Source: a virus. Taken from it: a DNA stretch of 28,774 nucleotides. The DNA is taken from IMG/VR virus record IMGVR_UViG_3300047667_000849, positions 1 through 28,774 of that record; one strand, 5' to 3'. Made by a program: the position numbers and the translations under genes. Of the stretch, positions 7,796 through 25,216 are shown in pieces. Each line of letters begins with the position of its first letter. Position 1 is the first letter of the stretch. The notes under the pieces are model-generated. The model was not told the DNA's origin. It searched no databases and saw only the letters and a program-made list of their open reading frames with translations.

Positions 7796-8188
7796 ATGCC
7801 TCAAATTAAAGTAATTACTCCGCCGGATTTATTGCATAATAGCGATCCCAGTATACTATTAATATATCCAAGTTCAGCTCTTAAAGAAGAGTTTCAAAAC
7901 ACTGTACAACATTGGGATCTTTCTTTTAACTTGTACATTTACTCACCACAAGCTAACGACCACAACCTAGATTGGTTACTGTCATTAGTTAAGATGTGTG
8001 ACCAAACTATTATAGACTTAGACCATTGTGACTCACAAGTACGTGACCTAGCGTCATATATTATTGCACAAAGTAACACTTTGTGGTTGACAAATGCGGT
8101 GGAAACAGTGTATAATAAATTAAGTATCAATCGAATATACGATTTACAACAACTAACGGAAGGAGTACTTAGTGCCAAGCAACAATAA
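7796..8188 (+). CDS. Conserved hypothetical protein (130 aa)
   Basis: A 130-residue soluble protein directly behind the membrane protein. It alternates hydrophobic strands and amphipathic helices (SILLIYPSSALKEEF, FNLYIYSPQ, DQTIIDLDHCDSQVRDLASYII), which looks like a small Rossmann-type or nucleotide-hydrolase-like alpha/beta fold, but no nucleotide-binding loop is present. The promoter for bS21 lies inside its 3' end, and its last 17 bases overlap the bS21 gene. Function unknown. Confidence 0.75.
   Translation: MPQIKVITPPDLLHNSDPSILLIYPSSALKEEFQNTVQHWDLSFNLYIYSPQANDHNLDWLLSLVKMCDQTIIDLDHCDSQVRDLASYIIAQSNTLWLTNAVETVYNKLSINRIYDLQQLTEGVLSAKQQ
8087..8116 (+). promoter_or_regulatory. Sigma-70-type promoter TTGACA-18-TATAAT
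   Basis: TTGACA (8087-8092) and TATAAT (8111-8116) with an 18-base spacer, inside the preceding coding region. It would start transcripts near 8122, just before the bS21 gene at 8172, giving that gene early expression of its own. Confidence 0.82.
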
Positions 8189-8456
8189 ATTTAGTAAGAA
8201 CTTTAACAGTGGCCAGCGTTGGAACAACGCAGCTAAAGAACAACCTAAGGGGTTGACTGTAGAAGTTCGCAACGGGGATGTAACGAAAGCAATGCGTATC
8301 TTTAAGAAGAAGGTACAAGAAGCTGGCATACTACAAGAAGTTCGCGAACGAGAGTTTTACGAAAAACCATGTGAGAAACGCAACCGTAAAAAGAAAGCGG
8401 CAGTTAATAGACACAAGAAGAACTTAGCAAAGAGAAAATCAGACTTAGGATTCTAA
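8172..8456 (+). CDS. rpsU: Ribosomal protein bS21 (phage-encoded)
   Basis: A 94-residue homologue of small-subunit ribosomal protein bS21, which sits near the anti-Shine-Dalgarno region and helps select mRNAs. From about residue 28 it follows the family: LTVEVRNGDVTKAMRIFKKK, then GILQEVREREFYEKPCEKR, and a basic helix KKKAAVNRHKKNLAKRK. An N-terminal extension of about 25 residues is unusual. The start is a GTG at 8172 with AGGAG upstream. Phage bS21 genes are known from pelagiphages and huge phages and are thought to replace host bS21 and bias ribosomes towards phage mRNA. It has its own sigma-70-type promoter and is followed after one base by a 2OG oxygenase gene. Confidence 0.95.
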   Translation: MPSNNKFSKNFNSGQRWNNAAKEQPKGLTVEVRNGDVTKAMRIFKKKVQEAGILQEVREREFYEKPCEKRNRKKKAAVNRHKKNLAKRKSDLGF

Positions 8457-11941: not shown

Positions 11942-12229
11942 ATGAACATACGACCAATACTTGACAAAATTATTGTACAAGTAAACGAACCAGAAGAACA
12001 AACAGCAGGCGGCATTTTTATTGCTACAGCAAAACAAGATGGTATTCTTGAAGCTGACGTACTTGCTGTTGGACCTGGAGCATATGATGACAGAGGCAAC
12101 TTTGTAGTACCTAACGTCAGCGTTGGAGATAGAATTTTAGTCAACCCCGGCACAGGTGATTCATATGAATTAAAAAAAGTAAAATACACAACTATCGTCG
12201 AAAAAGATATAGTAGCGGTCTTACAATGA
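11942..12229 (+). CDS. groES: GroES-type co-chaperonin
   Basis: A 95-residue co-chaperonin that caps the host GroEL ring to aid folding, probably of phage proteins as T4 gp31 does for its capsid protein. Family features are the N-terminal strand IRPILDKIIVQ, the mobile loop (EPEEQTAGGIFIA, about residues 16-28) that binds GroEL, VLAVGPGA, the VSVGDRILVNP block and a C-terminal strand ending DIVAVLQ. Unlike gp31, the sequence is close to bacterial GroES in length and motifs. The start has TAGGAG upstream. No GroEL is encoded nearby. Confidence 0.95.
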   Translation: MNIRPILDKIIVQVNEPEEQTAGGIFIATAKQDGILEADVLAVGPGAYDDRGNFVVPNVSVGDRILVNPGTGDSYELKKVKYTTIVEKDIVAVLQ

Positions 12230-12235
12230 TAAATA
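12228..12235 (+). promoter_or_regulatory. T4-type late promoter, GATAAATA
   Basis: Seven of eight matches to TATAAATA, overlapping the groES stop codon. It would transcribe hsp20 late, with a leader of about 85 bases. Confidence 0.55.
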
Positions 12236-12236
12236 A

Positions 12237-12326
12237 AAGTGTAGAAAGGACTGATTCTTTTTTACACTTAACTGGCACGCCGAAAGGGTGCTAAATTTAA
12301 ATCTTGCTTATTATAAGGAGAAAACA
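12237..12326 (+). promoter_or_regulatory. Structured 5' leader of hsp20
   Basis: The leader can form AAGTGTAGAAAG/CTTTTTTACACTT (12237-12248/12257-12269). A second hairpin pairs GCAC/GTGC plus CC/GG around a GAAA tetraloop (12275-12291) with one bulged G. A short CTTA/TAAG pairing (from 12308) lies next to the AAGGAG ribosome site. Thermosensor-like control is possible but unproven. Confidence 0.45.
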
Positions 12327-12788
12327 ATGACAAGACTAACAACTCTAGACCTACCACAATTCCACAGAGCTACTATTGGCTTTGACAGACTATTTAATGA
12401 ACTCGAAAGAGGCTTTGCAAACAGTCCAAACGGAAATGGTTATCCCCCATACAACATCGCACAAGTCAACGAAGACGAGTATATGATCTCAGTCGCTGTG
12501 GCTGGCTTTAATATGCACAATCTTGATGTTACCAAAGATGGTGATCAATTACAGATTGTAGGGACAGCCCCTAAGGGAGATGAAGATGTCAACTACCTAC
12601 ACAAAGGTATTGGTGGACGTAACTTCCGTAGGGAGTTTACACTTGCAGACCATGTTAATGTTGCAGGCGCAACACTAGAACTAGGTATGCTTAACGTACA
12701 CCTAAAACGTGAAGTACCAGAAGCACTAAAGCCTAAGACAATTAAGATCAATGATGGTCTTACAATTGACGGCAAAAAAAGTAAGTAA
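12327..12788 (+). CDS. Small heat-shock protein Hsp20
   Basis: A 153-residue alpha-crystallin-type chaperone of the IbpA group that holds unfolding proteins until refolded. The ATG at 12327 has AAGGAG and is preferred to an in-frame ATG at 12288 lying within the leader hairpin. The N-terminus (TIGFDRLFNELER) is IbpA-like. The crystallin domain runs from YNIAQVNEDEYMISVAVAGF through GIGGRNFRREFTLADHV to the LELGMLNVHLKREVPE strand. A C-terminal I-x-I-like anchor (KTIKIN) follows. Hsp20 is a hallmark of marine T4-like phages, usually linked to virion assembly. Confidence 0.95.
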   Translation: MTRLTTLDLPQFHRATIGFDRLFNELERGFANSPNGNGYPPYNIAQVNEDEYMISVAVAGFNMHNLDVTKDGDQLQIVGTAPKGDEDVNYLHKGIGGRNFRREFTLADHVNVAGATLELGMLNVHLKREVPEALKPKTIKINDGLTIDGKKSK

Positions 12789-12796
12789 TATGTCTA

Positions 12797-12818
12797 GGGG
12801 GAGTGTAACAACTCCCCC
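12797..12818 (+). other. GC-rich intergenic hairpin without T tract
   Basis: An eight-base-pair stem GGGGGAGT/ACTCCCCC with a six-base loop between hsp20 and clpS, followed by the clpS ribosome site rather than a T tract. Very G/C-rich for this AT-rich sequence. It may protect the 3' end of hsp20 mRNA. Confidence 0.7.
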
Positions 12819-12837
12819 ACTATTAGGAGAATAAGAA

Positions 12838-13149
12838 ATGTCGGTCGACCTAGATATTAAACTAGATGAAAAAATTAAACGAGTAGTTAAACACCCTTCA
12901 AAGTATAAGGTTATATTTCTTAATGATAGCGCCACACCAATGGAGTGGGTAGTTGAGTTATTGATAACTATATTTAAGCATAGTCAACAATCGGCTGAAG
13001 AAATAACTATGACAATACACACAGAAGATAGCGGTGTAGTTGGTATTTACTCTTTTGAAATTGCTGAATGCAGAGCACACGAAGCAACGACACTTAGCAG
13101 GAACCATGGGTTTCCTTTACAAATAAAGATAGAAGAAAACGAAGAATAA
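12838..13149 (+). CDS. clpS: ClpS-type N-end rule adaptor
   Basis: A 103-residue homologue of ClpS, which binds N-degron substrates and delivers them to ClpAP. Conserved positions are visible: KYKVIFLNDSATPMEWVVEL (Asn29-Asp30 and the TPMEWV helix start) and MTIHTEDSGVVGIYSFEIAE with His61, matching the E. coli Asn34, Asp35 and His66 pocket. A poorly conserved N-terminal tail of about 20 residues precedes the core, as in host ClpS, where it controls ClpA. It has AGGAGA upstream and overlaps the heme oxygenase gene by one base. It could redirect host proteolysis. Confidence 0.93.
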   Translation: MSVDLDIKLDEKIKRVVKHPSKYKVIFLNDSATPMEWVVELLITIFKHSQQSAEEITMTIHTEDSGVVGIYSFEIAECRAHEATTLSRNHGFPLQIKIEENEE

Positions 13150-13706
13150 TGACAACAATAAAAGAACTGACATGGGCACACCATCAAGAAGCTGAAAGAC
13201 AAGAGTTTGTAAAGGTATTAATGAGTGGAAAAATTAATCCACAATTTTATGCAACTTACTTATGGAACCAGCACAAAAAATACGATATACTAGAAGCTAT
13301 AGCAACAACACATGGCTTACTAGATGGTTTGTTTGAAATAAGACGTAAAAACGCAATACACGAAGACTATTTAGAATTGTGGAATAATCAATTACCGCCC
13401 CCAATAGTTGAAAGTACAAATGAATACATCGGACATATGAAAGAAATAATGCACGATCCTGATGCTGTTATGGCACACATCTACGTGTTACATATGGGCG
13501 ATTTGAGTGGCGGACAAATGATTAGGCGTAAAGTACCGGGCAAAACTAGAATGTATGATTTTGACGGCGACACAACAGAACTAAAAGAAAAAATTAGATC
13601 AAAGATTAACGACGATATGGCAGATGAAGCAAAGTTTGTTTTTGATTCAGCAACTAAATTATTTAAAGAACTAATGGAGTTAGACATTGAGCGTTATCTG
13701 GGATAA
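13149..13706 (+). CDS. ho1: Heme oxygenase (HO-1 type)
   Basis: A 185-residue heme oxygenase that opens heme to biliverdin IXalpha with release of CO and iron. The N-terminal helix TWAHHQEAERQEFVKVLMSG supplies the proximal His (residue 11 or 12). The distal helix signature HIYVLHMGDLSGGQMIRRKV, with GDLSGGQ at about 117-123, is characteristic. It is shorter than cyanobacterial Ho1, mostly at the C-terminus. It overlaps clpS by one base and the bilin reductase downstream by 20 bases, so biliverdin would be passed to that enzyme. Reduced ferredoxin from the host would supply electrons. Confidence 0.92.
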   Translation: MTTIKELTWAHHQEAERQEFVKVLMSGKINPQFYATYLWNQHKKYDILEAIATTHGLLDGLFEIRRKNAIHEDYLELWNNQLPPPIVESTNEYIGHMKEIMHDPDAVMAHIYVLHMGDLSGGQMIRRKVPGKTRMYDFDGDTTELKEKIRSKINDDMADEAKFVFDSATKLFKELMELDIERYLG

Positions 13707-14394
13707 ACTAATTGAATGCCAAGAACAAATAATTAATATATTTGAGAAGCATGCAAACGAAATACAAGAACCAGGCCTAGCAGACTTTAACCAGCCTGAC
13801 AATGGATGGGTAAATCGTGTGTGGGCTAATAATAATGTACGTAGAGCGCACATAGACGTTGTAGATGCACGTGAAAGCAAAGGCTTATGGATGATGCACG
13901 TATGTTGCTTTCCTACACTAGACAACGATGCACCTATATACGGCTTTGATGTTATTGCAGGTAAGAATAAAATGACTGGAGCATTTCATGACTTCAGTGC
14001 TAGTAGTGGCGGCTCTGATCATCCAATGATAGAAGGTTACAGAGAGTCTGTTAAAGATTTTATACCAACTAAACAACGTAAATTACCAGAGTGGGCTACA
14101 AACATCTTTACTGATAGTATGCTTGCCGCAGGCAATGTTCGTACAGAAGAAGAATCTGTTGCTATTATTGAATTAGCACTTGCTAACTTAGATGCATGGT
14201 TTGATGAAGTGCCACAGTTTGAAGGCAATGCAGACAAGTATCAAACATTAGCTGCACAAAATTACTATTGCGAAAATCAGCAAAAAAATCCACACACAGC
14301 TAACGTAATGAAAACTCTTGGTATCTCAGAAACTGACGTTGACACGTTCTGTAGCGACATGTTGTTTCCTAAATTAGATAAATATTCTATATAA
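13687..14394 (+). CDS. pcyX: Ferredoxin-dependent bilin reductase, PcyX-like
   Basis: A 235-residue enzyme of the PcyA/PebS/PcyX family, which reduces biliverdin to phycobilins using ferredoxin. The core APIYGFDVIAGKNKM (about 82-96) followed by GAFHDFSAS with Asp102 matches the family's substrate strand and catalytic-Asp strand. The start is a TTG at 13687 with GGAG upstream, inside the end of ho1. The pairing with ho1 and the divergence from cyanobacterial PcyA point to PcyX, the type described from marine phages of non-phototrophic hosts and reported to make phycoerythrobilin. No phycobiliprotein or lyase gene is present, so the pigment's role is open. Confidence 0.83.
   Translation: MSVIWDKLIECQEQIINIFEKHANEIQEPGLADFNQPDNGWVNRVWANNNVRRAHIDVVDARESKGLWMMHVCCFPTLDNDAPIYGFDVIAGKNKMTGAFHDFSASSGGSDHPMIEGYRESVKDFIPTKQRKLPEWATNIFTDSMLAAGNVRTEEESVAIIELALANLDAWFDEVPQFEGNADKYQTLAAQNYYCENQQKNPHTANVMKTLGISETDVDTFCSDMLFPKLDKYSI
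14377..14384 (+). promoter_or_regulatory. T4-type late promoter, GATAAATA
   Basis: Seven of eight matches to TATAAATA in the last codons of the bilin reductase gene, 23 bases before the ATG at 14408, with the AAGGGA ribosome site between. It separates late expression of the next gene from the ho1 unit. Confidence 0.55.
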
Positions 14395-14407
14395 GGGATA
14401 ATATACA

Positions 14408-15532
14408 ATGCGATTTCAAGATTTTAAATTAGTCGAAGCACCAGGTGATGAAATACCTGCAAAGAAGATGGCAAATGTAAATGTTGCATCTGATACATTC
14501 GACGGCGACGAAGTAAACGATTTACAACAGCAAGTAGCTGACAGAGTAATGCGTGTGCAAGACCCTAGTGTACTACACAGAGTTGAAGCTATCTTACGTA
14601 AAGGCGGCATTACTAGAATCTCAAATGCATACTTCAAACGTGATAGTGATGCAGAAAAGTTTGTTAACAGACTAGCAACAATGATCATCGAACTTGAAAT
14701 CCCTACTAACGATAAGATCGCATTCCTTAAAGAATTTGCAACTAAAAATTGTATTATCCCAGAAAAGATTTTTGACGGCACAGGAACTCCACAGTCAATG
14801 GACACTTGGTTTGATGGTAGTCAAACAGCAAGAACAATGTTTAAGGCTATGATTAACGATCCAGGACTAATTGGTAAGAACGCTGGTGAAGCAGGACCAG
14901 GCGAACTTGCTATTGCTTGTTTCCACAGAAAGATTACAGCTGGTACAGATCCAAAAGCAAGTTATGATTTAAAGTACGGTAGTGACTTGATTGAAGTTAA
15001 AACATCAGCAGGTGGTAAAGGTGGCGGACGTTGGACAGCAATGAACGACTATCCACTAGACACTTACATACGTAGCACAGAAAGCAAAATAGATCCTAAG
15101 AAATGTCCTAAAAGTGTTAGTATGTTTAGATCAACACGTCAAAGTGCAAAGACATTACCTAATATCGTAGACGTATTAAGTGATCCGCAATACTTAAAAG
15201 AAGAAGGCGGACAGCCTATTATGATTGCTGAACAAAAACAGATATTCAAACGTTTATTACAATACGCATATCCAAATGCAGACGATCAATTAATAACTAA
15301 AGCTGCAAGTTCATATCCTAATCATACAACTAAAGATATTGCTCCAGTAGCGTTTGCAAGTTACAAAGCAAAGCAAGACTTTACAAGTATGCTATTAATG
15401 AGAGCAAGTGGTGATAACATTACAACACTACACTTTAATGACTTGGCAGTAGCTGTTGATAAATTCAAACTAGGCGCCTTATACCTCAACGGACAACAAC
15501 GTGGTATGAGTATGCAAGCAACTCTAGTTTAA
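14408..15532 (+). CDS. Protein with PD-(D/E)XK nuclease-like core
   Basis: A 374-residue soluble protein read from a late promoter. The centre has GPGELAIACFHRKI (about 164-177) followed by SDLIEVKTSAGGKGGG (about 193-208). The arrangement of a Glu-bearing helix, then D-x-x-E-x-K with a Gly-rich loop, is typical of PD-(D/E)XK nucleases. The N-terminus MRFQDFKLVEAPGDE resembles the start of several structural proteins of marine T4-like phages, so it may be virion-associated. Exact substrate and family are unknown. No helicase or ATPase motif is present. It ends just before the regulatory region of the curli block. Confidence 0.75.
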   Translation: MRFQDFKLVEAPGDEIPAKKMANVNVASDTFDGDEVNDLQQQVADRVMRVQDPSVLHRVEAILRKGGITRISNAYFKRDSDAEKFVNRLATMIIELEIPTNDKIAFLKEFATKNCIIPEKIFDGTGTPQSMDTWFDGSQTARTMFKAMINDPGLIGKNAGEAGPGELAIACFHRKITAGTDPKASYDLKYGSDLIEVKTSAGGKGGGRWTAMNDYPLDTYIRSTESKIDPKKCPKSVSMFRSTRQSAKTLPNIVDVLSDPQYLKEEGGQPIMIAEQKQIFKRLLQYAYPNADDQLITKAASSYPNHTTKDIAPVAFASYKAKQDFTSMLLMRASGDNITTLHFNDLAVAVDKFKLGALYLNGQQRGMSMQATLV

Positions 15533-15591: not shown

Positions 15592-15599
15592 TATAAATA
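15592..15599 (+). promoter_or_regulatory. T4-type late promoter 1 of the curli operon
   Basis: Perfect TATAAATA, about 98 bases before csgF and inside a small palindrome. Confidence 0.75.
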
Positions 15600-15637
15600 A
15601 CTACCAATGACTTAGTATTTTATTAAATGAGCGATCA

Positions 15638-15645
15638 TATAAATA
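15638..15645 (+). promoter_or_regulatory. T4-type late promoter 2 of the curli operon
   Basis: Perfect TATAAATA, 51 bases before the csgF ATG and 46 bases after the first copy. Two consensus late promoters in tandem suggest strong late transcription of the downstream cassette. Confidence 0.78.
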
Positions 15646-15696
15646 CATATGAGTAATTCGAAACAGAGCGTGAGGGCGTTCGCAACGGAGAAAATT

Positions 15697-16167
15697 ATGA
15701 AAACCACATTTTCCTTTTTAACTGTAATAACGCTGCTCGTTTATACACAAGCAGCAGGCGCAGACTTAACATGGAAGTTTAAAAACCCTGCCTTCCATAA
15801 CGGAAGTGGATACTCTACACACGTATTAAGTGTAGAACAGTTACAGCATAATCGTAAACAAGAATTAAAAAAAGCTGCAGATGCCGAAGCATCAAGAATA
15901 GAACGAGAACTAGACAATTCTGTATTAAACAAGTTTATTAGAAACTTAGAGTCGAGAATATATGCTACACTATCTAAGCAGATGGTTGATAGCATGTTCG
16001 CCGACTGCGGTGATACTTGTGCAAACAGCGGAACAGCAGAGGTCGAAGGTAATATAATATCTTGGATTAAAGATACAGTAACAGGAACGATTACACTTAC
16101 TATAACCGGTGAAGACGGAACTGTTACAGAAATTACAATCCCTGGAATGGGGGAGTTTAATTTTTAG
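15697..16167 (+). CDS. csgF: CsgF-like curli assembly factor
   Basis: A 156-residue exported protein resembling CsgF, which sits on the outer face of the CsgG pore and helps anchor the growing curli fibre. The signal peptide is TFSFLTVITLLVYTQAAGA. The mature start DLTWKFKNPAFHNGSGYST matches the CsgF family hallmark (T-F-x-F-x-N-P-x-F), the part that binds inside CsgG. A charged helix follows (RKQELKKAADAEASR), then the C-terminal strand-rich portion with TITGEDGTVTEITIPG. The ATG at 15697 has CGGAG upstream; an in-frame ATG at 15649 would bury the signal peptide. First gene of the cassette, one base before csgG. Confidence 0.88.
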   Translation: MKTTFSFLTVITLLVYTQAAGADLTWKFKNPAFHNGSGYSTHVLSVEQLQHNRKQELKKAADAEASRIERELDNSVLNKFIRNLESRIYATLSKQMVDSMFADCGDTCANSGTAEVEGNIISWIKDTVTGTITLTITGEDGTVTEITIPGMGEFNF

Positions 16168-16168
16168 T

Positions 16169-17044
16169 ATGAAATTATTAGCCGCCATTGGATTTATATT
16201 CTTTTTAGGTGGGTGTGCAATGACACCTAGTTTACAAGTATTAGAAGAACATGCAACATCGCCTAAGATGCAACCAAGTCCAATTCAAAAGAGAATGGAA
16301 GATGTACCAGTAGTTGATGGTAGGCCTATTACGATAGCTGTTTACGCATTCAGTGATAAAACTGGACAACGTAAGCCATCGGATATGGTAGCAAGTTTAA
16401 GTAGTGCTGTAACACAAGGCTCAGAAGTATGGGTTATAAAAGCATTACAAGATGTTGGACACGGTGCATGGTTTGAAGTTGTGGAACGTGTTGGCATGGA
16501 TAATTTAATAAAAGAAAGGCAACTAATAAGGCAGACAAGAGAAGTTTACGAGAAAGGACTTTCTACAGGTCCAACACTGTTAAAACCAATGCTATTTGCA
16601 GGACTAATCCTTGAGGGAGGAATAGTCGGGTATGATAGCAACACAGCCGTTGGAGGTGTAGGAGCAAGATACTTAGGATTAGGACTACAAACAGAATATA
16701 GGATTGATACTGTTACTGTAGTAATGCGCCTAGTAAGTGTTAGCACAGGAAAAGTGCTAATGAGTATAGCAACCGAAAAGACAATCGCAAGCTATAGATC
16801 CGGAGCGGATATTTTTAAGTTCTTTGATTTAGGAACTAGATTGGTAGAAACAGAAATGGGATTTTCAGTAAATGAACCTGTTAACTATGCTGTAAGAGCA
16901 GCTGTAGAGCAAGGTGTTATAGAACTCATTTACGAGGGAGAGCGTAAGAAACTCTGGAAGTTTAAACCACCTGTTTCTAAGAAAGAAAACAATAATAATA
17001 AAAATACAACACCTGAAGTTCATGAGAGTATAACTTCAGAATAG
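16169..17044 (+). CDS. csgG: CsgG-like curli export lipoprotein
   Basis: A 291-residue homologue of CsgG, which forms the nonameric outer-membrane channel of the type VIII (curli) secretion system. The lipoprotein signal is MKLLAAIGFIFFLGGC with acylation at Cys16. Family blocks are ITIAVYAFSDKTGQRKPSD, AWFEVVERVGMDNLIKERQL, LFAGLILEGGIVGYDSNTAVGG, RYLGLGLQTEYRIDTVTV and TGKVLMSIATEKTIAS. The start at 16169 lies one base after csgF; an in-frame ATG at 16109 inside csgF is rejected because it hides the lipobox. The C-terminus ends in an Asn/Lys-rich tail. CsgE, CsgC and CsgD are not seen nearby. Confidence 0.95.
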   Translation: MKLLAAIGFIFFLGGCAMTPSLQVLEEHATSPKMQPSPIQKRMEDVPVVDGRPITIAVYAFSDKTGQRKPSDMVASLSSAVTQGSEVWVIKALQDVGHGAWFEVVERVGMDNLIKERQLIRQTREVYEKGLSTGPTLLKPMLFAGLILEGGIVGYDSNTAVGGVGARYLGLGLQTEYRIDTVTVVMRLVSVSTGKVLMSIATEKTIASYRSGADIFKFFDLGTRLVETEMGFSVNEPVNYAVRAAVEQGVIELIYEGERKKLWKFKPPVSKKENNNNKNTTPEVHESITSE

Positions 17045-17055
17045 GGGGCAAATAT

Positions 17056-17751
17056 ATGAATAAATTTATTTTATCAATACCAATGCTTTTTTTAATGGCT
17101 GCGCCTACCTTCGCTAACGATATCTATATTGCACAAATTGGAGACAATTTGGATTTAGACATTGTTCAAGACGGTAGTAACAACGTTATAGGTACTAGTA
17201 CAACTGATGTAACACTGGATGGAGACGACATGACATTTAGTATAACTCAGCAAGGAGATTCTAATACTATAGCGGCTGTAATAAAAGGCAACAATTACAC
17301 AGGAACCTGGAGTTTCGTAGGTAACAGCAATACTGTTGATATGCTATGTGATTCGATCTCAGGCACAAGCTGTGAAACAGTAACAGCAAACATTACTACT
17401 AATGGTAGTAACAACGACTTTACAATCTATACCGGCGAAAGTGCAGATGCTCAAGGATTAGTAGCAAACTTTACAATTGACGGCGACGGTAACACGGTAA
17501 CATCAAATGTTGACGGAACTAGTGTAGCACTAACATTGGTGAGTGATAACTCAGCAAGTGCTGCTGCATCAGGCAACACATTTACAATTGATATAGATGG
17601 TAATGGCGATGTACTAGGACATACTATTAATATGGACGTGACAGGCGGCGGGAGTACTTATAATATTACTCAAAGCGGCATCGGCGACAATATGATAGAT
17701 GCAACGTTTAGCGGTGATAACCAAAATGTCGATATTACACAATCTGATTAA
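17056..17751 (+). CDS. Curlin-repeat protein 1
   Basis: A 231-residue exported protein with curlin-type repeats, a candidate substrate of the CsgG pore. The signal peptide is FILSIPMLFLMAAPTFA; the mature protein begins NDIYIAQIGDNLDLDIVQDG. Clear x-I-x-Q-x-G-x-x-N repeats lie at both ends (FSITQQGDSNTI, YNITQSGIGDN, VDITQSD). The middle repeats are degenerate and Asn/Thr/Asp-rich (TTNGSNNDFTIYTG, FTIDGDGNTVTSNV). It has few charged basic residues, fitting an amyloid subunit. The start follows AGGGGGC. Its 3' end overlaps the FecR gene by 26 bases. It cannot be told from sequence whether it plays the CsgA or the CsgB role. Confidence 0.88.
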   Translation: MNKFILSIPMLFLMAAPTFANDIYIAQIGDNLDLDIVQDGSNNVIGTSTTDVTLDGDDMTFSITQQGDSNTIAAVIKGNNYTGTWSFVGNSNTVDMLCDSISGTSCETVTANITTNGSNNDFTIYTGESADAQGLVANFTIDGDGNTVTSNVDGTSVALTLVSDNSASAAASGNTFTIDIDGNGDVLGHTINMDVTGGGSTYNITQSGIGDNMIDATFSGDNQNVDITQSD

Positions 17752-18880
17752 CCCAGGCATAGTATTTTTATGCGTGGTCCTTTCCAGTCTACCGGCACTG
17801 GCTAATACACCTAATGCAGGTGCAATTGGCTCAATTCAAGGCTCCGGTGTACTTGAAAGGGAAAACCAGGTTATTACAGGAGGCACGGGCGTCTCAGTGC
17901 AAAGTATGGATACGGCTGTTACCGCTAAAGGTAAAATGCGTATTGACTTTGTAGACGATACCCGTGTCGATCTTACTGATCACAGCAGACTAATAATTGA
18001 CGAGTTTGTGTATGATCCAGCAAACGATATAGGTTCAATAAGTTTAAAAGCGTCATTAGGAACAGTGAGATACGCTAGTGGACAAATTGCAAAAAGATAT
18101 CAACAAAACGTAAAAATTAGAACACCAAGCGCAACCATCGGTGTGCGTGGCACAGACTTTATTATGCTTGTAGACGAAATAGGCGGAACTATGGTAACAT
18201 TATTACCTAGTTGCGATACATTAGGTACATGCATTACAGGAGAAATTAGTGTAGAAAGTGATACTGGATTCGTTATTATGAATCAAGCATTCCAAACTAC
18301 TATAATTAAATCTTCTTATTCAAGACCAAGTAAGCCTTTGATATTAGACTTAGACGAAAAGGACATTGGCACACTATTAATATTAAGAAAACGTGGCCCT
18401 TACCAGGAAGAAGAAGTTGCAATATTAAAAAGACAAAGAGCACAATTTGAATTCCTAGACGTAGACTATTTAGACTTTGATGATCTTGACACAGATGCAC
18501 TTACAGACAGCATCAAAGATATTTGGGTAACAGATCTAATGCGTGGATCAGATTATTATCTTGGCGAACTATTATATGATATGATAGATCAGCTTAATCT
18601 ACAGTTGGCAAGGTTATTTAGGAATGAACTAGACAAACAAAATGAACAATTTTTTACAGATCAAAGATTTGGAACTGATCCAACAACTAGAGTTACATTA
18701 GAAAAATCAGACCCTAACTGGGTAGTATCTAGAACTGACGTAGGTGTAGTTAATATTTTTCAACTAACCCTGTCGCAAGAAAGCGGATATATAATAAACA
18801 TGGAGCAGCAAGGCGAATCAATATTAGACTACAGACTTGGTGCTGGCACTAATGCAATTGATATAAGGCAATCACAATGA
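17726..18880 (+). CDS. FecR-domain protein with C-terminal curlin-like repeats
   Basis: A 384-residue exported protein. The ATG at 17726 gives a full signal peptide (IVFLCVVLSSLPALA, cleavage after residue 26); the upstream in-frame ATG at 17699 does not. About residues 40-165 form a FecR domain: GVSVQSMDTAVTAKGKMRIDF, HSRLIIDEFVYDP, LGTVRYASGQI and the hallmark TPSATIGVRGTDF. An acidic helical middle follows. The last 30 residues (IINMEQQGES and NAIDIRQSQ) read like two curlin repeats, matching the ends of its neighbours. FecR domains act in the periplasm as ligand sensors or scaffolds, often beside CHASE2 cyclases. It overlaps both curlin genes, so production is likely coupled to them. Confidence 0.88.
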   Translation: MSILHNLINPGIVFLCVVLSSLPALANTPNAGAIGSIQGSGVLERENQVITGGTGVSVQSMDTAVTAKGKMRIDFVDDTRVDLTDHSRLIIDEFVYDPANDIGSISLKASLGTVRYASGQIAKRYQQNVKIRTPSATIGVRGTDFIMLVDEIGGTMVTLLPSCDTLGTCITGEISVESDTGFVIMNQAFQTTIIKSSYSRPSKPLILDLDEKDIGTLLILRKRGPYQEEEVAILKRQRAQFEFLDVDYLDFDDLDTDALTDSIKDIWVTDLMRGSDYYLGELLYDMIDQLNLQLARLFRNELDKQNEQFFTDQRFGTDPTTRVTLEKSDPNWVVSRTDVGVVNIFQLTLSQESGYIINMEQQGESILDYRLGAGTNAIDIRQSQ

Positions 18881-20052
18881 AAATTACCGGAACACATCTA
18901 GGAGTATTAGTTATAGTATTATACTTTACAGCACAATCCTGTATGGCCAATGATATTTACATCCACCAGGCTGGTGATAACATCGACTTGACTATCGTTC
19001 AAGATGGTGATAACAATAAGATAACTGGTTCGGGTGGAAGGGCTCTAGTGAGTGGTAATAACACAAGCACAACCTTTACACAAACAGGTGACAATAACCA
19101 AGTGTGGTCGTATATGAGTGCTGACAATGGACAACAGACAGTTACACAAACAGGCAATACTAACTATGCTACGTCAGACTGTCACGGCAACAACTGTTCA
19201 ACAACCATTACACAAAATGGTAATAACAATGCGGCAAATTTAGAATTTGGTAACGGCGGCGATTACAATAACACTGGTACAATTACACAAGACGGTAACT
19301 ACAATGCGGCTGGTATGGAAGCAAATGGTGATGACAATACCTTTGTTATAGATCAAGACGGCAATAATAATAGTATTGGAGGGATTACCAGTGCGCCAAT
19401 TACTGGTGATGACAACACATTATCAATAACACAAGATGGTGACTACATGGCTTTTGAAGGACATCTTATAGGTAGTAATAATAGTTTAACATCATTTCAA
19501 GGCGGTGGCGCTAATAGTAGTTTTATTCGTGTTAGTACAGTTGGTAGTAACAACACAGGCAACCTACGTCAAGGTAAGAAGATGGACGGGTCAGTTGATG
19601 GTAATGACAGCGGTAACCATGAACAATACGTAACAGTAGTTGGTGATGGTAATACTGTTGATACGTCACAGGTAAACAGTAACGGTGCAAGTTCAGATCA
19701 TCATATGGCACACGTTATAACAGGTGACGGCAATACACTAAGCCACTTGCAATATGCAGATAAGAAAAAACAAGGCTTCATTGAAATAACAGGCGATGAC
19801 AATACAGTTACACTTGAACAAAGAAATAGTTCAAATCACTTTGCAGACATAGTATTGACTGGAGATGATCATACAGTAACTGGTGTACAACGTGGTGGTG
19901 CCAACGCACATAACTTCTCGGTTGACTTAACTAACTCCGGCGGTGCATACACTGTATCAACTACACAAAACTCAAGTACAGCACAAACTTACAGCCTAAC
20001 AGGTAGTTGTACAAATGCTAACGGGTGCGGCATAGTAGTAAATCAATACTAA
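18877..20052 (+). CDS. Curlin-repeat protein 2 (large)
   Basis: A 391-residue exported curlin-type protein, about twice the usual CsgA length. The signal peptide ends SCMA; the mature start NDIYIHQAGDNIDLTIVQDG is almost the same as in curlin protein 1, so the two are paralogues. The first half holds a ladder of repeats (TFTQTGDNNQ, TVTQTGNTN, TITQNGNNN, TITQDGNYN, VIDQDGNNN, SITQDGDY). The second half is more degenerate with GDGNT/GDDNT turns and ends VVNQY, similar to the CsgA C-terminus. It is rich in Asn, Gly, Thr and Gln and has two CxxxxC pairs. It overlaps the FecR gene by four bases. It is likely the main fibre subunit. Confidence 0.9.
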   Translation: MKITGTHLGVLVIVLYFTAQSCMANDIYIHQAGDNIDLTIVQDGDNNKITGSGGRALVSGNNTSTTFTQTGDNNQVWSYMSADNGQQTVTQTGNTNYATSDCHGNNCSTTITQNGNNNAANLEFGNGGDYNNTGTITQDGNYNAAGMEANGDDNTFVIDQDGNNNSIGGITSAPITGDDNTLSITQDGDYMAFEGHLIGSNNSLTSFQGGGANSSFIRVSTVGSNNTGNLRQGKKMDGSVDGNDSGNHEQYVTVVGDGNTVDTSQVNSNGASSDHHMAHVITGDGNTLSHLQYADKKKQGFIEITGDDNTVTLEQRNSSNHFADIVLTGDDHTVTGVQRGGANAHNFSVDLTNSGGAYTVSTTQNSSTAQTYSLTGSCTNANGCGIVVNQY

Positions 20053-20068
20053 GAAAGGTATAAAACAG

Positions 20069-20290
20069 TTGAACGTTTATACACACGGTAATTTTACGTT
20101 TGAAAATCGCAACAATAAAAGCGTATTGTATAAAGACGGCCGCATACTATTTTTGGGCAATCCATGGTGCGGCATATTAGAATTCTTACATGCAACTAAT
20201 AATGCACCCGAAGTAAGAGAAATGTTTAAGGCACAACTAGAGCAACGTGAACAATTAAGATACAAACTTCAAGAACAATCAATCCAGTAA
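20069..20290 (+). CDS. Small protein of the curli block (73 aa)
   Basis: A 73-residue soluble protein with a TTG start at 20069 and AAAGG upstream. The N-terminal half is strand-rich (NVYTHGNFTFENRNNKSVLY, then GRILFLGNPW). The C-terminal half is a Glu/Gln/Arg helix (REMFKAQLEQREQLRYKLQE). It has no signal peptide. It is not recognised. Its place between the curlin genes and the cyclase suggests a link to that system; the start codon and exact function are uncertain. Confidence 0.6.
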   Translation: MNVYTHGNFTFENRNNKSVLYKDGRILFLGNPWCGILEFLHATNNAPEVREMFKAQLEQREQLRYKLQEQSIQ

Positions 20291-20297
20291 GATAGAA

Positions 20298-20305
20298 AAT
20301 AAATA
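20298..20305 (+). promoter_or_regulatory. Possible late promoter, AATAAATA
   Basis: Seven of eight matches to TATAAATA, but it ends only four bases before the cyclase ATG, so transcripts from it would lack a leader. The gene is more likely read through from the tandem promoters at 15592-15645. Confidence 0.25.
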
Positions 20306-20309
20306 CAGT

Positions 20310-22358
20310 ATGACGAAGTATATCACACATTGGTCAGTAACATTTGTTACAGCACTAATAATCTTTATGTTTCACTATGGTAATAGCACTATAGTAGAAT
20401 CTGTTCGGCTCAAACAGTTTGATTTACTTCAACAAACAGACGAGCAATACCTCTCCCAAGATATTGGAATAGTCGCTATTGACGAAGCCGCCATTGAAAA
20501 GTACGGTCAGTGGCCTTGGAAGCGCGATGTTATCGCAGATATAATCTGGAAACTACGTGAAGCAGGAGCCGGTATCATTGTGATACCTATACTATTTTCT
20601 GAACCTGATAGACTAGGTGGAGATCAAATATTAGCCGAGGCACTTGTAGATAACGGTGTAGTAATAGCTCAAACAGGCACTACATCAGTCAATAGAAACT
20701 CTGTTCCCCGCGGAGTTGCAAAAATAGGTGACCCGTTGCCATTTCTGTTTGAATGGCCAGGCATGCTGGGCCCTATCCCTCTACTAGGTCAAAATGCTGG
20801 AGGTGTTGGAGTTATAAACACAGCACCGGAGGTAGACGGCGTAACTCGTCGTGTACCATTGATTATGCGTATACAAGAAGATACGTACCCGTCACTCGCA
20901 GTAGAGGTAATTAGATTAGCCACAGGACAACCATCGTATCAAGTTAAAGCGAATGCAGGTGGTGTAGAAAAAATCCGTGTTCCTGGTTACCCAGTCATAA
21001 ACACAGATCCTAATGGTCAAATTTGGTTACGTTGGAATAAACAGTTTGACACAATTAGTGCGATCGAGGAAGACTTTAGTGTTTTTCAAGGTCGCACGGT
21101 TGTGATTGGTATAACAGCAGAAGGGTTAGGTAGTATGATTGCAAGTCCTACAGGACCGCAATACAATTATATACCTGCCGCTGTTACACTACAAACTATG
21201 CTAGATGGAGATCAGATAAAGCGTCCGTTTTGGGCAGACTTAGCTGAACTAGGAGTAACAGCCGCTGTTTCAGTATTTGCTATTGTAACAGCGGCTCTTG
21301 CACCGTTTTGGGCAGTAGGCACATTAATAGTACTAGTAGTCGGAGGACTTGCATACGGAGCGTTATATGCTTGGCAAGAGTACTTATACTTGCTTGATGT
21401 TACTATGCCTATACTTGCATTTGTACTTGTAAGTTTACATGCGGTGTTTAATAGGTTTGTAAGCGAGTACTTACAAAAGCAAGAAATCAAGAAACAGTTT
21501 GCAGGCTATGCCAGTCCAACTGTTGTGCGTATGCTACAAGAAAATCCTGCACTAATCAAAGACGGTATGAAGAAGGAAGTAAGTATTTGTTTCTCAGATT
21601 TACGTGGCTTTACACCACTAGGCGAAAGCTTCGGTGATGATGTTAAAGGACTTACTAAAATAATGAATGGCTATATGGATGCCATTACACAACCAATACT
21701 AGATGCAGACGGTATGGTTATTAAATATATTGGCGATGCAAGTATGCACATACACAATGCACCAATAGAAGATCCACATCACCCTAGAACGGCTGTACAA
21801 TGTGGACTAGATATGTTAAAGGCTGTGGAGAAGTTTAATGATAAAATTGTTGCTGAAGGAAGACCTCCCGTTGGTATGGGGGCTGGGATCAATACTGGAC
21901 TTGGATACTTGGGTGAGATGGGAAGCACAGCTAGACACAGTTATGACGTACTTGGCGATGCGGTTAGCACAGCAGCGCGAATCGAAAGCAAGTGCAAAGA
22001 ATACGGATGTGTCCTCTTAGTAGGCGGAGACACATACAAGCATACTAATAATGATTTCTATTATTTAAAAGTAGATGACTTAGCAGTTAAAGGTAAAACA
22101 ATTGGAATTGAAATATATACTGTGTTGGATATTGAGTTAGACAAATATCCAGGTGCAAAACAATGCCACGAAGATATGCATATACATTATCGTAAACAAA
22201 ACTTTGATAAAGCTATTGAGTCATGTAATGATTTGATGGAATGCTTTGACGGTAAAATGTCGGGGTATTATAATATGTGGATCGAACGCTGTGAGTTCCA
22301 AAAAACTCAAAAGTTACCAACGGATTGGTCTGGTGTGTTTATTGCTACAACTAAGTAG
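20310..22358 (+). CDS. CHASE2-domain class III adenylate cyclase
   Basis: A 682-residue membrane enzyme predicted to make cAMP. An N-terminal helix is followed by a periplasmic CHASE2 sensor (about residues 30-300, with DIGIVAIDEAAIEKYGQWPW and GGVGVINTAPEVDGVTRRVP). Three transmembrane helices (about 311-380) and a class III cyclase domain (about 420-590) follow. Metal-binding Asp430 (FSDLRGFT) and Asp476 (YIGDAS) are present. So are Lys472 and Asp546 (YDVLGD), the pair that selects adenine. Arg557 of the transition-state pair is kept, but the usual Asn is Ser553. A C-terminal tail of about 90 residues holds a short TPR-like helix pair. The start at 20310 lacks a clear ribosome site. Last gene of the curli block, convergent with the minus-strand island. 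Confidence 0.93.
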   Translation: MTKYITHWSVTFVTALIIFMFHYGNSTIVESVRLKQFDLLQQTDEQYLSQDIGIVAIDEAAIEKYGQWPWKRDVIADIIWKLREAGAGIIVIPILFSEPDRLGGDQILAEALVDNGVVIAQTGTTSVNRNSVPRGVAKIGDPLPFLFEWPGMLGPIPLLGQNAGGVGVINTAPEVDGVTRRVPLIMRIQEDTYPSLAVEVIRLATGQPSYQVKANAGGVEKIRVPGYPVINTDPNGQIWLRWNKQFDTISAIEEDFSVFQGRTVVIGITAEGLGSMIASPTGPQYNYIPAAVTLQTMLDGDQIKRPFWADLAELGVTAAVSVFAIVTAALAPFWAVGTLIVLVVGGLAYGALYAWQEYLYLLDVTMPILAFVLVSLHAVFNRFVSEYLQKQEIKKQFAGYASPTVVRMLQENPALIKDGMKKEVSICFSDLRGFTPLGESFGDDVKGLTKIMNGYMDAITQPILDADGMVIKYIGDASMHIHNAPIEDPHHPRTAVQCGLDMLKAVEKFNDKIVAEGRPPVGMGAGINTGLGYLGEMGSTARHSYDVLGDAVSTAARIESKCKEYGCVLLVGGDTYKHTNNDFYYLKVDDLAVKGKTIGIEIYTVLDIELDKYPGAKQCHEDMHIHYRKQNFDKAIESCNDLMECFDGKMSGYYNMWIERCEFQKTQKLPTDWSGVFIATTK

Positions 22359-25139: not shown

Positions 25140-25216
25140 GCGGCTGTAACTCAGCTGGATAGAGTACTTGGCTACGAACCAAGAAGTCAGGAGTTCGAAT
25201 CTCTTCAGCCGCGCCA
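25140..25216 (+). tRNA. tRNA-Arg(ACG)
   Basis: A full cloverleaf: acceptor GCGGCTG/CAGCCGC, D stem ACTC/GAGT, anticodon stem CTTGG/CCAAG with loop CTACGAA (anticodon ACG at 25174-25176), T stem AGGAG/CTCTT with one G-T pair, TTCGAAT loop, discriminator G and encoded CCA. It would read CGU, and CGC/CGA if the host TadA converts A34 to inosine. It forms the start of the transcript for the gene at 25240. Confidence 0.95.

Follow-up and report, generated by a model that had tools for sequence, protein, structure and literature searches.

A probable curli-export operon of a marine phage with a FecR-domain protein and a CHASE2 cyclase whose catalytic half is exchanged between phages

The viral fragment IMGVR_UViG_3300047667_000849 from IMG/VR, analysed over its full 28,774 nucleotides (the window), carries at 15.6-22.4 kb seven co-directional genes on the plus strand. 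In 5' to 3' order these encode CsgF, CsgG, a curlin, a FecR-domain protein, a second curlin, a 73-residue open reading frame (ORF) and a CHASE2 class III cyclase. Judged from sequence, there is about an even chance that this cassette serves to export curli late in infection and includes a FecR-CHASE2 circuit, which would report the state of the envelope or fibre as a cyclic nucleotide. The combination of genes is widespread and its linkage was published in 2022; what is new here are details of its origin, of the FecR protein and of the modular cyclase.

Organisation of the cassette

The features of the cassette are as follows, all on the plus strand.

15592..15599, plus strand: TATAAATA, T4-type late-promoter-like site 1
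15638..15645, plus strand: TATAAATA, T4-type late-promoter-like site 2
15697..16167, plus strand: csgF (Pfam PF10614, 1e-13; phrog_35372; the ORF of the original prediction starts at 15649)
16169..17044, plus strand: csgG, outer-membrane lipoprotein pore, ATG at 16169 (Pfam PF03783, 8e-46; alignment)
17056..17751, plus strand: curlin-repeat protein 1, 231 amino acids (Pfam PF07012, 7e-5; alignment)
17726..18880, plus strand: exported FecR-domain protein, 384 amino acids (Pfam PF04773, 4e-8; AlphaFold2 (AF2) model; Foldseek; PDB profile match to 5ix9; tail motif; hydropathy)
18877..20052, plus strand: curlin-repeat protein 2, 391 amino acids (Pfam PF07012, 4e-16; solved curlin 8c50, 3.6e-6)
20069..20290, plus strand: 73-residue ORF, TTG start (no Pfam match)
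20310..22358, plus strand: CHASE2 sensor, transmembrane segments and class III nucleotidyl cyclase with a type-S catalytic domain (Pfam CHASE2, 5e-41; Guanylate_cyc, 9e-17)

The original prediction, made from the DNA letters alone, had named the same seven genes, and the ORFs together with Pfam matches exceeding the curated cut-offs bear out every domain in its list. Its near-zero or negative spacing becomes, with our preferred starts, a range from -26 to +19 nt (+1, +11, -26, -4, +16 and +19 nt in order). The start of csgF is probably the internal ATG at 15697 rather than that at 15649, because just 3 nt separate the latter from the second TATAAATA site, and the former has a GGAG upstream and is where the signal peptide begins. 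The FecR gene probably starts at 17726. Homologues of the 73-residue ORF occur in 14 loci, some of them upstream of csgF, and it is not a fixed member of the cassette. We considered it as a regulator of the cyclase and dropped the idea, as most cassettes lack it and its position shifts.

The products look like a curli export system. The lipobox cysteine of CsgG, Cys16, is invariant in 23 aligned relatives, CsgF combines a signal peptide with its Pfam match, as expected of a CsgF partner, and both curlins carry PF07012 repeats and are well preserved in the alignment of relatives. Curlin 1 ends ...NVDITQSD, its tail in the window reading ...STYNITQSGIGDNMIDATFSGDNQNVDITQS. Pfam found no CsgE domain in the seven cassette genes, which is not decisive; according to PMC9599517, the modules of Alphaproteobacteria and of phages lack CsgE as well.

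Conservation of gene order among phages

From a cyclase-anchored scan of IMG/VR we retained 80 of 416 relatives. The complete set was present in 60 cyclase-anchored viral or phage loci, always as csgF-csgG-curlin-fecR-curlin; in one of them (L027) the cyclase is encoded on the other strand. An independent CsgG-anchored scan gave an identical gene order, and the cyclase was present in 40/40 of its loci with sufficient contig. A curlin gene precedes FecR in all 98 distinct FecR-bearing viral loci (98/98). The cyclase follows on the same strand in 77 of these loci; in 3 it is upstream or on the opposite strand, and in 18 the contig ends too early to tell, giving 77/80 for contigs of sufficient length. 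The order that the original prediction had proposed to look for in related phages is thus conserved. As for its caveat that relatives might carry the FecR and cyclase genes elsewhere, FecR is never found away from a curlin in these loci and the cyclase is otherwise placed in 3/80.

In L027, L117 and L156 the cyclase is on the strand opposite the curli genes, and the operon is not always intact. Three further contigs (L084, L085, L086), filed under Pirellulales and Rhodobacteraceae metagenome-assembled genomes (MAGs), carry cassettes that are 51-74% identical in the cyclase; in all likelihood these are phage sequences that were binned as bacterial.

The original prediction took the FecR-cyclase linkage to be undescribed, which is incorrect. 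Wittmers et al. 2022 (PMC9599517) reported CsgF, CsgG, CsgA/B, FecR, a second CsgA/B and an adenylate cyclase in pelagiphage podoviruses, and in myoviruses by hidden Markov model (HMM), and the GenBank records of Melnitz and HTVC008M show the same gene order as the window. Parts of the cassette are also discussed in PMC7029224 and PMC9004378, and PHROGs already has families for CsgF, CsgG, FecR and the cyclase.

A modular cyclase

The cyclase retains the metal ligands D430 and D476, the purine-site residues K472 and D546, and R557, and in the window its transition-state asparagine is replaced by Ser553. Formation of cyclic AMP (cAMP) appears plausible because both metal aspartates, Lys472, Asp546 and Arg557 are kept. 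The bacterial CHASE2 cyclases that we compared keep the asparagine, except in two SAR116 genomes. In the cyclase-anchored scan the serine type accounted for 79/82 proteins, a figure biased by the cyclase query; the CsgG-anchored scan gave 20 distinct cyclases of the Asp/Ser (serine) type vs 14 of the Ser-or-Thr/Asn (asparagine) type, the pairing being always linked.

It is possible, although we consider it unlikely, that the type-S protein is no conventional adenylate cyclase, and would instead have low activity, make another product or serve as a nucleotide-binding switch. Every type-S protein has serine for the transition-state asparagine, with the linked Asp546 and a changed GDASMHIH motif, as this explanation would have it. 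The set of intact residues is nevertheless that of an ATP-using enzyme, and the SAR116 chromosomal homologues have the same serine.

The two halves of the cyclase have different relatives. Compared with L073, L061 and L160, the window protein is 32-38% identical in CHASE2 and 81-88% in the catalytic domain; compared with L065 and L055 it is 68-70% identical in CHASE2 and 43-50% in the catalytic domain. Identity switches near residues 385-395, directly after the last transmembrane segment, and separate trees of the CHASE2 and catalytic halves, which are quick trees with long branches noted, disagree accordingly. These comparisons show that phages have swapped the catalytic half, attaching it to CHASE2 sensors that have diverged. 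A sensor that is kept while its output is swapped argues that the nucleotide output matters to the phage.

The FecR-domain protein

The exported FecR protein consists of a signal peptide, a FecR/anchor beta domain, linker helices and a C-terminal beta domain that ends in a curlin-type strand. Its AF2 model (pLDDT 83) matched the PupR signalling domain in Foldseek, and the N-terminal part is matched to the domain by which an antifreeze adhesin is anchored at the cell surface (5ix9), both by profile (E 4e-4) and by fold (Foldseek). Pfam, the AF2 model and hydropathy revealed no anti-sigma part and no transmembrane segment after the signal peptide; the protein is therefore not a FecR anti-sigma regulator, and there is no FecI/FecR switch. 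The description 'FecR sensor' in the original prediction holds for the FecR domain, seen by Pfam and by fold, and needs rewording for the rest. The protein may be a periplasmic partner of CHASE2.

The tail of the window protein reads ...SGYIINMEQQGESILDYRLGAGTNAIDIRQS. The pattern [IVLF]x[IVLF]xQ, composed after the sequences had been seen and counted among related loci, closes 123/126 cassette FecR proteins, 202/268 curlins and 10/1430 other ORFs. It is present in none of the listed FecR proteins outside curli operons. Only this motif identifies the FecR tail as curlin.

Bacterial operons and FecR-CHASE2 pairs

The order csgF-csgG-curlin(s)-fecR-CHASE2 cyclase is also found in three bacterial chromosomal operons, known from MAG contigs: two from Caulobacteraceae (L087, L091) and one from Hyphomonas TMED17 (L088), the last on a contig of 705 kb. 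The flanks checked, those of L088 and L091, are bacterial and encode TonB receptors, alanine racemase, FAA hydrolase, metallophosphatase and amidohydrolase. PMC9599517 states that FecR and the cyclase do not occur in bacterial operons of the type VIII secretion system (T8SS); these three operons are counter-examples. In 44 other alphaproteobacterial CsgF loci (40 from the order of G002 and 4 more from the class) FecR and cyclase were absent beside the curli genes.

A CsgG tree places the three bacterial operons with the phages on one branch (99*) apart from ordinary curli, and the CHASE2 tree likewise joins them (100*). On the CsgG branch the bacterial sequences nest among those of phages, but phage monophyly was not rejected (p-AU 0.089), so that the tree does not establish a transfer from phage to bacteria.

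FecR and CHASE2 genes are neighbours in many Alphaproteobacteria without curli, with at least 17 pairs within 3 kb, at least 13 of them on the same strand with FecR upstream. Such pairs have been described in Burkholderia as BiofilmReg (PMC5192318) and in Campylobacterota in a CHASE2 cyclase cluster (PMC9239204). The two genes are adjacent in the bacterial operons, whereas in the window curlin 2 and the 73-residue ORF are encoded between them.

Late-promoter-like sites

Both TATAAATA sites that the original prediction had called perfect late promoters are present upstream of csgF, but their frequency in the window is not above chance (3 observed vs 3.8 expected). Support for TATAAATA as a putative csgF promoter comes from relatives, in which it occurs in 18/61 gaps upstream of csgF vs 87/597 other same-strand gaps, a modest enrichment (Fisher p 0.005). 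Late expression of the cassette is plausible, on promoter statistics that are weak.

Discussion

How might these proteins act together? Late in infection, the phage would make the CsgG/CsgF pore and two curlin proteins. The exported FecR protein, with its anchor-like N-terminal domain and curlin-like C-terminal strand, would most likely sit where the fibre meets the envelope, as an anchor, cap or nucleator, and partner CHASE2, the sensor part of the cyclase in the inner membrane. The state of export or of the fibre, if fibres do form, would then give rise to a cyclic-nucleotide signal in the infected cell, most likely cAMP, with a presumed benefit to the phage. A more elaborate form of this circuit, in which the curlin-type end of FecR couples the growing fibre to CHASE2, the catalytic half is swapped while the sensor is kept, the widespread serine version with its linked Asp546 has a changed rate or product, and the circuit has passed between phages and bacteria, is more speculative, and we regard it as rather doubtful.

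Several observations weigh against a circuit of this kind. No clumping was seen in cultures in the Melnitz study (PMC9004378). The tail motif was defined post hoc, and curlin homology of the FecR tail was not established by other means: the profile comparison was not significant (hhalign E 0.054), Foldseek with the C-terminal domain matched no curlin, and a curlin-repeat HMM scored FecR proteins no better than shuffles. The serine in place of the transition-state asparagine could weaken or change the activity, and the scanned genes of the window include neither a recognisable cAMP receptor nor a recognisable phosphodiesterase.

Fibres could alternatively shield the cell surface from superinfection or keep siblings and cells attached to one another, with the cyclase a minor regulator, as proposed in PMC7029224 and PMC9599517. 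We give this roughly one chance in four. The good preservation of the curlins fits such a role, but the lack of clumping for Melnitz does not, and neither the FecR-cyclase linkage nor the exchange of catalytic domains would be explained. It is compatible with the circuit, as its purpose. The ideas of clumping, exclusion and release in the original prediction were already hypotheses in the literature, and the first is the one not seen for Melnitz.

A less probable alternative is that the CsgG/CsgF pore has been repurposed for the timing of lysis or for release, in the manner of a pinholin, with the other genes modulating the pore. This was proposed for Melnitz (PMC9004378), whose authors counted the curlins as missing, and the late-promoter-like sites upstream of the cassette would suit it; yet the Melnitz GenBank record carries two curlins, and both the two curlins kept in order across the sampled phages and the curlin-like FecR tail would be left unexplained.

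That FecR is an iron-dependent regulator, the cassette responding to iron or importing siderophores, is suggested by the domain name, by PMC9599517 and by the match to PupR, but is very improbable and already largely refuted by the missing anti-sigma and transmembrane parts, the lack of FecI or a TonB receptor among the window genes scanned, the pairing of FecR domains with CHASE2 proteins in bacteria, and the anchor-like domain and curlin-like tail.

Neighbouring genes and other phages

Both the relatives of the cassette and its neighbours suggest a T4-like phage, but neither a structural gene nor a host was identified from the window. No known RNA element was found in it besides one tRNA, tRNA-Arg (acg) at 25140-25216. 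A homologue of ribosomal protein S21 lies at 8172-8456, and consecutive GroES-like, Hsp20-like and ATP-dependent-protease-related genes at 11942-13149. These are followed by a heme oxygenase (13149-13706; Pfam 2e-18) and a ferredoxin-dependent bilin reductase-like gene (13687-14394; phrog_7278), a bilin-making pair beside the cassette; the latter has a DNA match to a gene of Pelagibacter phage Mosig annotated as phycocyanobilin:ferredoxin oxidoreductase. Directly upstream of the cassette, a gene at 14408-15532 encodes 374 amino acids without a Pfam or PHROG match, in which a LIEVKTS stretch is, by eye, reminiscent of nuclease folds.

Jumbo phages of the stalked bacteria Brevundimonas and Caulobacter (ON529855, MH588545 and others) encode distant members of the CsgG family, one of them annotated HfaB, which is possibly a separate use of CsgG-like pores by phages. 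A short record without annotation, OR851715.1 (1499 bases, labelled Salmonella phage S.Kent 1-2-1), has a CsgG-like frame of 38% identity and may be a piece of bacterial curli DNA deposited as phage.

Comparison with known systems

With FecI/FecR signalling (FecR, PupR) the window protein shares the FecR-domain fold, but it has no anti-sigma part and no transmembrane segment after the signal peptide, and no sigma factor or TonB receptor was seen among the window genes scanned. Like curli and type VIII secretion, the cassette has a CsgG with a lipobox, a CsgF with a signal peptide and curlin-repeat subunits predicted to be exported; a CsgE gate was not seen in its operon, which does not set it apart from alphaproteobacterial modules. 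The closest likeness is the pelagiphage T8SS cassette (PMC9599517; HTVC008M; Melnitz), which has the same genes in the same order, csgF-csgG-curlin-FecR-curlin-cyclase, while the window adds the 73-residue ORF. The type-S catalytic domain is shared with Melnitz, unlike HTVC008M. The histidine kinase that stands directly upstream in the podovirus form was not recognised in the window, where the 374-residue protein occupies this place.

Bacterial FecR-CHASE2 sensory pairs resemble the cassette in encoding an exported FecR-domain protein in the vicinity of a CHASE2 transmembrane signalling protein, but they are not linked to curli and the listed FecR tails have no curlin-like end. The three bacterial curli operons share the gene order, their CsgG, FecR and CHASE2 are related to those of the window, and in both Caulobacteraceae operons the FecR protein closes with ...INVTQD. 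They differ in a CHASE2 that is about 34-36% identical, an ordinary asparagine catalytic domain, bacterial flanks, and a FecR gene directly before the cyclase with no curlin between. Two published readings are corrected by these comparisons, that FecR and cyclase never occur in bacterial curli operons and that FecR is an iron regulator. Curli cassettes are widespread in ocean phages, and with a proposed coupling of FecR to CHASE2, counterparts in bacteria and catalytic domains that are swapped, this auxiliary metabolic gene cluster becomes a testable circuit, for which the Caulobacteraceae and Hyphomonas operons could be used as cellular models.

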